Shown here: piece after piece, positions 12,113 to 31,314 of the stretch
Position numbering within the stretch: the stretch's first letter is position 1
Layout of the letters: every line of letters starts with the position of its first letter
Source of the DNA: an uncultured Eubacteriales bacterium
Lineage (GTDB): Bacteria; Bacillota; Clostridia; Lachnospirales; CAG-274
DNA: 37,538 bases
Assembly: GCA_949293325.1 (NCBI GenBank)
Contig: CASFCZ010000042.1
Span: 1-37,538, forward strand
Direction: 5' to 3'
Notes under the pieces: generated by a model
What the model was told of the DNA's origin: nothing
The model's input: the letters and a program-made list of their open reading frames with translations, nothing else
Database searches by the model: none
Program-made: the position numbers and the translations under genes

Positions 12113-12289
12113 TTAATTATACTTACGTTTTCTGGCAGCTTCGGACTTCTTCTTACGCTTTACGCTTGGCTTATCGTAATGCTCTCTCTTACGAACCTCG
12201 CCCATAATACCTGCTTTAGCGCAGTTTCTCTTAAAGCGGCGAAGTGCACTGTCAAGAGATTCATTTTCTTTTACTCTAACCTCAGACAC
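12113..12289 (-). CDS. rpsU: Small ribosomal subunit protein bS21
   Basis: 58 residues, very basic, starting at a GTG codon: [20 protein letters not shown] and a C-terminal [15 protein letters not shown] tail typical of bS21. The open frame continues 34 codons upstream to an ATG at 12391, but that extension is unlike S21 and the GTG at 12289 has a very strong ribosome binding site (GGAGGGAGGG, 12296-12305) six bases away. bS21 sits near the anti-Shine-Dalgarno end of 16S rRNA and helps initiation. The unusually strong site and the complementary C-rich leader suggest autogenous control. Confidence 0.95.
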
Positions 12290-12295
12290 GAATTT

Positions 12296-12437
12296 CCCTC
12301 CCTCCGGTTTACCTTTTAACGTGCACACCCTAGCTTGTGGGATGCGCCGACACCGGCTGTCTGATGAATAATTAAGCTGTATCGTGCACACCCGTCTGGA
12401 GGGGGATTTATTTGTTTAACAACAAATAAAACAGCAC
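12296..12437 (-). promoter_or_regulatory. Structured 5' leader of rpsU
   Basis: The roughly 140-base leader starts with a 10-bp AT hairpin (arms 12407-12416 and 12421-12430, loop 12417-12420). Two identical, self-complementary copies of CGTGCACACCC (12320-12330 and 12383-12393) lie 63 bases apart; their GTGCAC cores can pair with each other, reinforced by AGCTT/AAGCT inside, enclosing small GC hairpins. A CCCCCTCC tract (minus strand, 12398-12405) is complementary to the rpsU Shine-Dalgarno GGAGGG at 12296-12305. This is a candidate switch for ribosome access; the mechanism is inferred. Confidence 0.55.
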
Positions 12438-24814: not shown

Positions 24815-25465
24815 ATGTCCTTTAAGGATCTTAGCTTTAAAAAGAAGCTGGAACATATATGGGAATATTATAAGCTGATAATACTTGGAGTAATATTCCT
24901 TATCTTTGTGGCAGGCACCATATTCTACTCCCTGGTAATAAATCCCAGACCCGATACCTACGTGGGTGTGGCGGTGTATGACCAGTATCTTAACCAGCAG
25001 CAGCTGGAGGGGCTGGAGGAGGAAATGGATACTGCCCTTGCACTTCCAAAGGATAAGACAGTAAGGTTTACCACCTACTACTTTGATGAAAATGACGACC
25101 TTTTCAATGTGGATATGCAGCAAAAGTTTATGACATATTTATACACGTTGGAAACACATCTTATTACTGCATACAGGGCAGCCTTTGAAAACTTTGTTTC
25201 ATCCGGCTATATTGCCCCTCTGACAGACTACTACAGTGAGGAGGAGCTTGCGGCCCTTGATGAGGATGGACGTCTTATTTACTTTACTGATCCCGAGGAT
25301 AATACGGAAAAGCCCTTTGGCATCAACCTTTATGGCTCTGCTCTCTTTGAAAAGTACAATGTGTTTGATATGTCAAGCCAGCCTGCCTATATTGGTATAT
25401 TTCCTGCCGCCGGCTTTGAAGAAGGGTCACATGCAGCAGTAGATGAAATAATTAAAAGGGAATAA
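24815..25465 (+). CDS. Small single-span membrane protein, function unknown
   Basis: 216 residues. A short basic cytoplasmic N-terminus (KDLSFKKKLEHIWEYYK) is followed by one membrane helix (about 21-42) and an acidic extracytoplasmic domain of about 170 residues. The N-terminal region KKKLEHIWEYYKL followed by a helix is typical of a group of uncharacterised Firmicutes proteins. No enzymatic motif is visible. AAAGGAGCTTTACAG precedes the ATG. It is cotranscribed with the DUF6062 gene and may share its process. Confidence 0.7.
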   Translation: MSFKDLSFKKKLEHIWEYYKLIILGVIFLIFVAGTIFYSLVINPRPDTYVGVAVYDQYLNQQQLEGLEEEMDTALALPKDKTVRFTTYYFDENDDLFNVDMQQKFMTYLYTLETHLITAYRAAFENFVSSGYIAPLTDYYSEEELAALDEDGRLIYFTDPEDNTEKPFGINLYGSALFEKYNVFDMSSQPAYIGIFPAAGFEEGSHAAVDEIIKRE

Positions 25466-25509
25466 ATTATTAATTTTTTGTGAAAATTTAACTTTTTTTT
25501 CTTTTTACG

Positions 25510-25538
25510 TTGCATTTTTTTTACCATTTATGTATAAT
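25510..25538 (+). promoter_or_regulatory. Promoter of the small RNA at 25544
   Basis: TTGCAT (25510-25515), 17-base spacer, TATAAT (25533-25538), in a T-rich intergenic stretch. It is directly followed by a non-coding but strongly structured segment. Confidence 0.75.
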
Positions 25539-25543
25539 ATTGT

Positions 25544-25688
25544 TTGGAGTTGTTTATACAGCTCTCAACCCCAAACCCCATGTATGCGGTTACGCATGGA
25601 CAGGCCCTCCCCCAAAACTGTCATCCCCCTTTAATACCGCATACATAGCCAAACCTAAGGCACGTTCGATCGTTGAACGTGCCTTTTG
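25544..25688 (+). ncRNA. Candidate C-rich small RNA with three-way-junction fold
   Basis: About 145 bases from the predicted start to the terminator. GTTTGG (25542-25547) pairs with CCAAAC (25649-25654) and closes the molecule. Inside is a 7-bp hairpin GAGTTGT-TTAT-ACAGCTC (25547-25564), then a perfect 10-bp stem ATGTATGCGG (25580-25589) with CCGCATACAT (25637-25646), enclosing an ACAG/CTGT hairpin. Predicted single-stranded parts are C-rich: ACCCCAAACCCC, CCCTCCCCC and ATCCCCC. Such C-tracts in Gram-positive small RNAs pair with Shine-Dalgarno sequences. An 11-bp stem (25657-25667 with 25675-25685) plus TTTT ends it. No coding sequence with a ribosome binding site is seen. The family is not recognised; 6S-like or other known RNAs did not match. 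Confidence 0.62.
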
Positions 25689-25742
25689 GCGTTTATAAAC
25701 AGCAATCAGGTTATATATCAGTTCCATCAGCTTTGTAATAAT

Positions 25743-25778
25743 AAAAAAGCCTGCTGTCGGCAAAACAGCAAGCTTTTA
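25743..25778 (-). terminator. Terminator of secA-prfB
   Basis: AAAGCCTGCTGT and ACAGCAAGCTTT arms (one G-U pair) around a seven-base loop; on the minus strand the tail is TTTTTT. It lies about 40 bases after the prfB stop. Confidence 0.85.
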
Positions 25779-25814
25779 ATATTTTTAAGACAATATCAGT
25801 CCATAACTATTTTA

Positions 25815-26940
25815 TCACTTATTTTCCTCCTCACTGCCGATAATCCATTTAAGATACGCATTGATAAAGGCATCAAGATCACCGTCCATTACAGGCTGAA
25901 CATTGGCAGTTTCACAACCTGTCCTGTGGTCCTTAATCATATTGTATGGGTGGAATACGTAGGAGCGTATCTGGCTGCCCCAGCTTATATCCTTTACATC
26001 GCCTCTGATACCCTCAAGGAGTTCACCCTGTTCCTTCAGCTTAAGCTCATAGAGCTTAGCCTTAAGCATCTTCATACAGGTTTCTCTGTTCTGGAGCTGA
26101 CTTCTTTCAGTCTGACAGGATACCACTATACCCGTTGGGTGATGAATAAGTCTTACGGCGGAGGAAGTTTTGTTAATATGCTGACCACCTGCACCGCTGG
26201 AACGGAACACCTGCATTTCAATATCATCAGGGTTAATATCCACCTCAATAGTATCATCCAGCTCAGGCATTACATCACAGCTTGCAAAGGAGGTGTGACG
26301 TCTTCCGCTTGAGTCAAAGGGTGATATACGCACAAGGCGATGAATACCTTTCTCCGACTTAAGATAACCGAAGGCATTTTCTCCCTTCACCATAAAGGTA
26401 ACGGACTTTATACCTGCCTCGTCACCCTCAAGGTAGTCAAGAAGCTCAAACTGGAAGCCCTCTCTGTCCACCCATTTGCTGTACATACGGTAAAGCATGG
26501 ATACCCAGTCGCATGCCTCTGTACCACCTGCACCTGAATGAAGGGTAACGATTGCATTATTTTTATCATAGGGACCGGTAAGGAGGGTAGAAATACGAAG
26601 GTGCTCGTACTTTTCAAGGAAGTCATCCTTCATCTCCTTTACCTCGGGAACAACGGAGTCATCGTCCATTTCATTTCCCATTTCAATAAGGGTCATAATG
26701 TCATCAAACTGGGTACAGAGATTATCATAACCCTCTATCTTATTTTTAAGCTGTTTTGTCTGCTGGAGAACACCCTGGGCAGACTCCATATCATTCCAGA
26801 AATCGGGATCGCCTGCTATTTCTTCAAGCTCCTTCACCTTTTCACGTGCCTCTGCAACGTTAAAGTGAGTCCCCCATTTCCTCTAAATTTTTATGATAGC
26901 CCGAAAGCTCGGTCTTGATCTGATCAAGTTCAAAAACCAT
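25815..26940 (-). CDS. prfB: Peptide chain release factor 2 with programmed +1 frameshift at UAA
   Basis: About 374 residues after frameshifting. The first frame starts at 26940 (MVFELDQIKTELSGYHKNLE) and runs 26 codons to an in-frame TAA at 26860-26862. A +1 slip on CTT (26863-26865) continues as NVAEAREKVKELEEIAGDPD to the stop at 25815. Upstream of the slip site is an internal Shine-Dalgarno-like GGGGG (26871-26875), five bases before CTT. RF2 hallmarks are SPF (anticodon-like, in RISPFDSSGRR) and GGQ (GAGGQHINK). RF2 reads UGA and UAA. Normally the frameshift stop is UGA, read only by RF2; here it is UAA. It follows secA, a common order. Confidence 0.92.
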
Positions 26941-29799: not shown

Positions 29800-30237
29800 C
29801 TATACACTCAGAGGGTGTTCCTCTTCCCTTGCATTAAGCTCCCTTGATATTATTTCCAAAGCTTTATTATGAATACGGTAACATTGCCTGAGGCTAATAA
29901 CAAAGGGCAGATGCAATGGCAGGCACTCCCAGTCCATACCCTTTATATAACGGGTTCTGAGTATGGCCTGCATATCATAGGGCATTTTACCTACTATCTC
30001 CTCTATCTCACCCTGTACCGAAATATGGTAGGCTGTATTTTTCCTTAGCTGCTCCATACGTCTTTTAAGGCTTTCAATATGTATTATCTCACAGTTGCCC
30101 TGATTTTTAAGACTGGTCTGGATCCTTTCAAGCTCATCTCCGTTTAATTTCTGGATACGGAGATTTTTGTCGCAGTTACCCCAGAGTCTGAGGAGATCCT
30201 TGATTCTCTTTTTTTCTTCCTTCTTCAAAAATATCAT
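29800..30237 (-). CDS. Phage-type ArpU/sigma region 4-like regulator
   Basis: About 145 residues, charged and helical. The C-terminal part (MPYDMQAILRTRYIKGMDWE, then LRQCYRIHNKALEIISREL) resembles the sigma-70 region 4 helix-turn-helix of phage late regulators of the ArpU/RinA/DUF1492 group, which activate packaging or transfer genes. The start is uncertain: the ATG at 30237 abuts AAAGGGG, and a TTG three codons later is better spaced. It is divergent from the XRE repressor, with an excellent promoter carrying a LexA-like box. No other phage structural genes are present, so it is a remnant or a solitary regulator. The family assignment is moderate. Confidence 0.6.
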   Translation of the reverse strand: MIFLKKEEKKRIKDLLRLWGNCDKNLRIQKLNGDELERIQTSLKNQGNCEIIHIESLKRRMEQLRKNTAYHISVQGEIEEIVGKMPYDMQAILRTRYIKGMDWECLPLHLPFVISLRQCYRIHNKALEIISRELNAREEEHPLSV

Positions 30238-30259
30238 CCCCTTTACGTTTTATGAAAAT

Positions 30260-30363
30260 ATAATAGCACATACGTTCGAATATGTCAACCGTTTTGTTAA
30301 ATATTATTTAACTTTTAATCTTTTTATTGTATTTTACCGCTAAATATGTTAAAATTATTTAAC
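30260..30363. promoter_or_regulatory. Divergent promoters with two repressor operators and a LexA-like box
   Basis: Minus promoter: TTGACA (30283-30288), 17-base spacer, TATTAT (30260-30265). Plus promoter: TTGTAT (30327-30332), 17-base spacer, TAAAAT (30350-30355). Two similar palindromes, GTTAAATATTATTTAAC (30296-30312) and GTTAAAATTATTTAAC (30348-30363), lie next to the minus -35 and over the plus -10, as expected for an autoregulated XRE repressor. Within the minus promoter spacer is CGAACGTATGTGCT (30265-30278), matching 12 of 14 positions of the Gram-positive LexA/DinR box. Confidence 0.7.
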
Positions 30364-30391
30364 AAAAAAACAAATCAAAAGGGGATTTATT

Positions 30392-30847
30392 ATGGAAAAC
30401 AGAATAGCTGACCTGCGTAAGGAAACAGGACTAACCCAACAGGAGGTGGCAGACAAGCTTGGAGTATCCAAACCCGCCATTGCCCAGTATGAAAGCGGCA
30501 AAACCGAAAACATTAAACCCGAAAGGCTGCTGAAGCTTGCAGAGTTGTTTAATGCCTCCCCTGCATATATTATGGGATGGAGTCAGATGCGGACAGAGCC
30601 TACCGAAGAAGAAACCCAACTCCTTAAGGCATGCCGTAATCTTAACGGAAGGGGAATGGCACAGATTCAGCTACGACTATGGGAGCTGTCCCAAATATCG
30701 TACTATGTTGAAGATATAATAGAAAATAAGGAGGATGAGCTTGCACCGGTGGCAGCCCATGCAGACGGTGCTCCTCCTGATGTACTGAAAGCTGAAATTG
30801 AAAGAGTAAGCAGGCTTATTAAAAACGACAGAGGTGATGTGTGTTGA
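30392..30847 (+). CDS. XRE-family repressor (ImmR-like)
   Basis: 151 residues. A Cro/C1-type helix-turn-helix fills residues 3-60 (IADLRKETGLTQQEVADKLG, then SKPAIAQYESGKTENIKPERL), followed by a helical C-terminal part of unknown fold. Its gene overlaps the following ImmA-type peptidase. In ICEBs1 and related phages, ImmA cleaves the ImmR repressor upon SOS or cell-cell signals; the pair here is arranged the same way. AAAAGGGG precedes the ATG. It probably binds the two palindromes in its own promoter region and represses the divergent gene. Confidence 0.88.
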   Translation: MENRIADLRKETGLTQQEVADKLGVSKPAIAQYESGKTENIKPERLLKLAELFNASPAYIMGWSQMRTEPTEEETQLLKACRNLNGRGMAQIQLRLWELSQISYYVEDIIENKEDELAPVAAHADGAPPDVLKAEIERVSRLIKNDRGDVC

Positions 30848-31314
30848 AACATCTTGAGTTATTAAAAGAAGCAGAGGACAACAGCCTGAAACTGTATCGC
30901 TGTAAAATGGACAGTGCAGTAAGGGGACTATGTATAGGTAGTAACATAGTTCTTAACAGGGATATAGACAATCTGAAGGAGTTTAACTGTATTCTTGCAG
31001 AGGAGATAGGCCATTACAAAACCACCGTAGGTGACATAACCGCACCGGGAACAAACAATGCCAGGCAGGAGCTCAGGGCAAGGGCATACGCCTATGACAA
31101 ACTAATAGGTCTTGAGGGACTTATACAGGCATGGGATGCAGGCTGCCGCAGTATAAACGAGGCGGCGGAATATCTTACGGTAACGGAGGAATTTTTCAGA
31201 GCGGCACTGGAATACTATCGCAGCAAATACGGAGTGCAGACCAGCTGCAAAGACAGGATAATTACCTTTATCCCCTACCTTGATATAAGTAAGGAAAGCC
31301 AGAAATCCCTGTAA
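30841..31314 (+). CDS. ImmA/IrrE-type metallopeptidase
   Basis: 157 residues starting at GTG (or the adjacent TTG at 30844), with GAGGTGAT just upstream inside the repressor gene. The active-site helix reads LAEEIGHYKTTVGD. Compared with the usual H-E-x-x-H, the first His is replaced (A-E-E-I-G-H), the variant seen in many phage ImmA-like proteins. Whether it retains zinc-peptidase activity is uncertain. By analogy to ICEBs1 ImmA it would cut or sense the neighbouring XRE repressor. The C-terminal half resembles the helical tail of that family. Confidence 0.82.
   Translation: MLKHLELLKEAEDNSLKLYRCKMDSAVRGLCIGSNIVLNRDIDNLKEFNCILAEEIGHYKTTVGDITAPGTNNARQELRARAYAYDKLIGLEGLIQAWDAGCRSINEAAEYLTVTEEFFRAALEYYRSKYGVQTSCKDRIITFIPYLDISKESQKSL

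Follow-up and report, generated by a model that had tools for sequence, protein, structure and literature searches.

The segment 25510-25688 considered here, on the + strand of the window, by which we mean the whole stretch of 37,538 nucleotides that was analysed, lies between the stop of a gene for a 216-aa protein (24815-25465, + strand) and the end of prfB (25815-26837, - strand). The 216-aa protein has no Pfam family and is 88% identical to its counterpart at the same place in G001, a genome of the same genus and a different species. The convergent prfB encodes release factor 2 (Pfam PCRF and RF-1) and is absent from this place in G001. As originally predicted, this gap of 180 bases holds no protein gene; no convincing open reading frame was found in it. 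From this gap we infer a transcript of ~145 nt without a conserved frame (25546-25690, + strand; all features of the RNA below are on this strand). Elsewhere in the window, positions 29800-31314 hold genes for a helix-turn-helix regulator and an IrrE-like protein (Peptidase_M78), and the opposite strand carries an unclassified gene of 145 aa. A prophage or integrative element probably has its edge here.

A promoter can be read from the sequence as TTGCAT and TATAAT separated by 17 nt (25510-25538). Its -10 box (25533-25538) is invariant in the G001 orthologue, and the GGAG at 25546, taken as the start of the inferred transcript, is also conserved there. The -35 hexamer is poor, matching the consensus at 3 of 6 positions; in G001, its TTGC is kept and the spacing is 16 nt. 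In addition, the promoter at 25510-25538 is absent from the list of a consensus promoter scan. The 17-spaced promoter of the original prediction is present as read, and the weak -35, the scan and the spacing in G001 count against it. No Fur box (TGATAATNATTATCA, at up to three mismatches) was found around 25510 or in the promoter of the G001 orthologue, nor any site near 25510 for the Rex-type operator TTGTGA-N6-TCACAA at the same tolerance.

The stretch 25510-25688 folds at -51.3 kcal/mol, compared with -29.7 ± 3.7 in shuffled sequences (0 of 200 as stable, z -5.82), and the transcript 25546-25690 reaches z -7.3, or z -4.7 without its terminator (0 of 300 shuffles in each case). In the predicted fold, the RNA begins with a hairpin of 8 bp and a four-base loop (P1, 25546-25565), followed by a single-stranded stretch, CR1 (CAACCCCAAACCCC(A), 25566-25580; mean unpaired probability 0.92), identical at 14/14 positions in the orthologue. 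The perfect long stem P2 (AUGUAUGCGGU/ACCGCAUACAU) pairs 25580-25590 with 25636-25646 over 11 bp, compared with the 10 bp first claimed, and encloses an internal loop and the hairpin P3 of 5 bp (25580-25646 as a whole). The P3 loop, CR2 (GCCCUCCCCCAAAA, 25604-25617; mean unpaired probability 0.99), carries CCUCC, the anti-Shine-Dalgarno core, and the 3' strand of the internal loop forms CR3 (CAUCCCCCUUUAAUA, 25622-25636; 0.79). The three-way junction of the original prediction was not recovered, as both the MFE and the centroid structures consist of a stem, an asymmetric internal loop and a hairpin.

The RNA closes with a terminator-like hairpin (25648-25690), whose 12-bp core is extended by GCCAAA/UUUGGC and which ends in a short U-tract of four U, then GG. 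Because of this U-tract, termination is probable and not certain, and the hairpin is absent from the list of a terminator scan; the strong terminator previously proposed was not confirmed. Transcripts running past it in this genome would reach the terminator hairpin of prfB (25745-25777), which scores as a terminator on the + strand too.

The C4-C5 tracts that had been placed in the loops lie at 25569, 25576, 25609 and 25625. All four are predicted to be single-stranded, and the stretches that carry them have mean unpaired probabilities of 0.79-1.0 in both species. C accounts for 27 of the 61 unpaired bases of the RNA, and G for 4. Given this composition, the count of C4+ tracts in 145 nt is not extreme (4 observed against a mean of 2.0, with 60 of 1000 dinucleotide shuffles reaching 4); it is the exposure and conservation of these tracts, rather than their number, that carry weight.

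A BLAST search of 97 relatives retrieved one orthologue, in G001 (contig CALWRD010000034.1, uncultured Clostridia bacterium E03__bin333); among the 16 matches listed, those beyond G001 have neither the layout nor the fold. The two RNAs are identical at 142/145 positions, with one inserted base, while the intergenic DNA is 73% identical upstream and 53% downstream, and the adjacent genes show 80-83% DNA identity, dS of 1.2-1.4 and 44-49% identity at four-fold degenerate sites. The binomial probability of such identity is ~3e-40 at the rate of the four-fold sites and still ~1e-8 at the rate of the more conserved of the two neighbouring genes (83% nucleotide identity). All that differs is a single base of the P1 loop, a base inserted into the internal loop and two positions of the terminator stem, which form a single compensatory pair (U-A to C-G). 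From CR1 through P2, nothing else than the insertion has changed, and the P2-P3 segment (25580-25646) is identical at 67/67 positions besides it. The unpaired C-rich stretches are thus identical, although stem pairing alone would not demand identity. Concerning compensatory changes among homologues, one terminator-stem pair was kept by a double change and the covariation signal is limited to that stem, as P1-P3 never vary between the two available sequences. The upstream gene is shared between the two genomes, the convergent downstream genes are unrelated, and the RNA is present in a single copy in this genome. We are highly confident that it is a real and strongly selected non-coding RNA.

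Its distribution appears to be very narrow. With Rfam release 15, no match was obtained in the window at gathering thresholds, and a permissive scan of 25400-25800 gave sub-threshold matches only, nearly all of them on the prfB terminator, in agreement with the original statement that the family is not recognised. Identity with 6S RNA was rejected, as the genome under study (G000) has its RF00013 match at another locus, G000:C98:6403-6589. A covariance model built from the two sequences found nothing further in 48 genomes of the family, 392 of the order and 391 of the class, under stricter filters in the large searches that could miss weak homologues. In G002, the third species of the genus, whose upstream protein is 49% identical to that of this genome, the RNA was absent genome-wide at the model threshold and, with filters off, near the orthologous upstream gene. 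No credible homologue was found with filters off at 28 further loci that carry an orthologue of the upstream gene, G002 included, the best match (E 0.065 over 98 kb) being a different hairpin. Searches of phages, plasmids and viral contigs gave no homologue either; one short stretch of a Geobacillus phage (85%) matches the AT-rich part of the promoter, not the body of the RNA. Scanning the genome collection with a two-part C-rich pattern gave 22 matches, of which only the G001 contig (L086) was taken as true and the other 21, from unrelated phyla, as chance. Half-patterns at 3 mismatches in the 48 family genomes were found in G000 and G001 only, besides a single-half match in G042, also taken as chance. 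So far, the RNA is known from two species of one genus. A separate observation concerns L064 (G027:C27, reverse complement), where a structured-looking, apparently non-coding stretch, the ATCCCCCTTGTAGTATGCGTGTAG ... GGTGGAGATCGTTCTCCACC pattern region, directly follows the 216-aa orthologue and extends into the space before the next gene; it is missing in the near relatives L065 and L066 and has no Rfam match.

Together, the strong conservation in a second species, the stable fold, the non-coding character and the absence of any Rfam match give good support to the claim of a new family of C-rich small RNA. Most likely, the family is new while its functional kind is already known, and the absent match sets it apart from the Rfam families. 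Regarding its function, we consider it probable that it is a stand-alone, trans-acting C-rich small regulatory RNA of ~145 nt. It would have a promoter of its own, be shielded by its 5' and 3' hairpins, and display three single-stranded C-rich stretches. These stretches, CR2 (the CCUCC loop), CR3 (CCCCCUUUA) and CR1 (CCCCAAACCCC), could pair with G-rich Shine-Dalgarno regions in a number of mRNAs and so keep ribosomes from binding there. Since no match to the Hfq family was found in G000-G002 (controls positive), the RNA would act without canonical Hfq.

Target prediction was performed on a sample of ~30% of each genome, which for this genome comprised 41 stretches, including the window, and 499 called genes. 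CR2 pairs with ribosome-binding sites at a mean of -9.3, compared with -8.2 ± 0.6 for shuffled CR2, and reaches -15 kcal/mol or lower in 34/499 genes against 14.9 in shuffles, an excess to be expected because CR2 carries CCUCC. In the same sample, CR1 pairs more weakly than its shuffled versions and CR3 shows no clear excess. The proposed blocking of Shine-Dalgarno sequences is plausible, precedented and accompanied by a modest excess for CR2, whereas CR1 and CR3 do not add to it; the C-rich segments match ribosome-binding sites partly through composition alone. When 117 orthologue pairs were compared, rpsU (bS21), at -19.2, ranked first among the conserved predicted partners of CR2, and its ribosome-binding site GGAGGGAGGG is identical in both species; as 2 of 30 shuffles reach its score, rpsU is only suggestive as a target. 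This purine ribosome-binding site, ahead of the rpsU start in the window (12289-12310, - strand), is of unusual length. Another conserved site, UAAAGGGGGAGGAG, lies ahead of an unclassified gene (G000:C102 and G001:C61) and is complementary to CR3 over 10 bases and to CR2 over 8. CR3 also complements, over ~13 bases, the ribosome-binding site of a gene for an LSM-domain-like protein (G000:C30), which was not retained as a target beyond candidate status, having no orthologue found in the G001 draft and being present in G002, which lacks the RNA. The protein of this gene (G000:C30:3751-4140, L218; the same gene in L206) is 130 aa long and starts with a hydrophobic N-terminal segment; its LSM-like stretch, of the LSM12 type, scores 29.2 bits against a Pfam cut-off of 29.5. 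G002 has a relative of it at 66% identity. The rpsU, UAAAGGGGGAGGAG and LSM-like genes may be regarded as candidate targets and not as findings.

Other explanations must nevertheless be weighed. It is possible, albeit unlikely, that the RNA is a structured RNA binding a protein or forming part of a ribonucleoprotein (titration, a 6S-like role or a complex part) rather than one acting by base pairing. Antisense RNAs are usually less conserved than this, and the near-complete conservation of stems and loops alike, together with the weak target statistics, would fit a protein partner; nevertheless, the C-rich, G-poor composition of the unpaired regions fits a design for mRNA pairing. Slightly less probable is that we are looking at a conserved 3' UTR and terminator of the operon formed by the DUF6062 and 216-aa genes, an mRNA tail without an independent promoter that stabilises the operon mRNA or is released by processing. 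No terminator is listed between the stop of the 216-aa gene (25465) and the RNA, both genes remain upstream in G001 and the -35 is weak, all of which agree with such a tail. However, the TATAAT is invariant and stands at the right distance ahead of the conserved GGAG start, a tail requires a hairpin only and not 67 unchanged bases including loops, and the RNA is missing at the 28 other loci of the upstream gene, G002 included.

A variant of the pairing function, which we consider improbable, is that CR2 acts as a broad mimic of the anti-Shine-Dalgarno sequence, tuning translation initiation overall rather than a small regulon, again without canonical Hfq. It is raised because the 16S rRNA tail has CCUCC as its core and because the best conserved predicted partner is the mRNA of bS21, a protein located beside the anti-Shine-Dalgarno of the ribosome. 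Still less credence can be given to a small protein gene or a cis-acting leader: the frame 25510-25698 is open, as is a short one from an ATG at 25580, but no Shine-Dalgarno precedes this ATG and the base inserted in G001 puts the sequence out of frame, so that a coding function is rejected. In each genome a different, convergent gene follows downstream, leaving no adjacent same-strand gene for a leader or riboswitch to precede. Equally remote is a recently transferred or repeated mobile element whose identity reflects recent movement and not selection: identity falls directly after the hairpin and only two genomes carry the RNA, but it is in single copy here and stands in the same place behind the same gene in G001, with flanking upstream and promoter DNA alignable at 73-83%; phages and plasmids yielded nothing credible, and viral contigs nothing at all.

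The stand-alone C-rich regulatory RNA thus remains our preferred reading, and it offers an example of a single-copy, strongly selected small RNA recognised from sequence alone. To our knowledge, few small RNAs have been charted in uncultured Clostridia. C-rich-loop silencing has been described for Bacillus and Staphylococcus, and the C-rich regions of RsaE, FsrA, RoxS and IsrR pair with mRNA, Shine-Dalgarno sequences included (PMC3053349, PMC8216469, PMC9410917). RsaE/RoxS carry an unpaired C-rich motif pairing with the Shine-Dalgarno sequences of several mRNAs (PMC3053349, PMC8216469), as is proposed here. Unlike them, the present RNA has no Rfam match even in the permissive scan, displays three C-rich stretches, is confined to two species of one Clostridia genus and has a promoter without the Rex-type operator. 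IsrR of Staphylococcus aureus has Fur boxes in its promoter (PMC9410917), whereas the present RNA has none, and the order of helices differs between the two; IsrR, found in Staphylococcus, is set apart here by its published description and its host. FsrA and CsfG of Bacillus subtilis share with our RNA the C-rich regions, used for mRNA pairing in FsrA and presumed so in CsfG (PMC8216469), but differ from it in that it has neither an Rfam match nor a Fur site; FsrA requires the Fbp helper proteins (PMC9410917). LhrC of Listeria monocytogenes, which also belongs to the literature on C-rich motifs in Gram-positive small RNAs, is multicopy (PMC4132741), in contrast to the single copy found here. 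The present RNA most likely works like RsaE/RoxS, FsrA or IsrR without being homologous to them, and the silencing of mRNAs by C-rich loops may have arisen independently in Clostridia without a recognisable Hfq.
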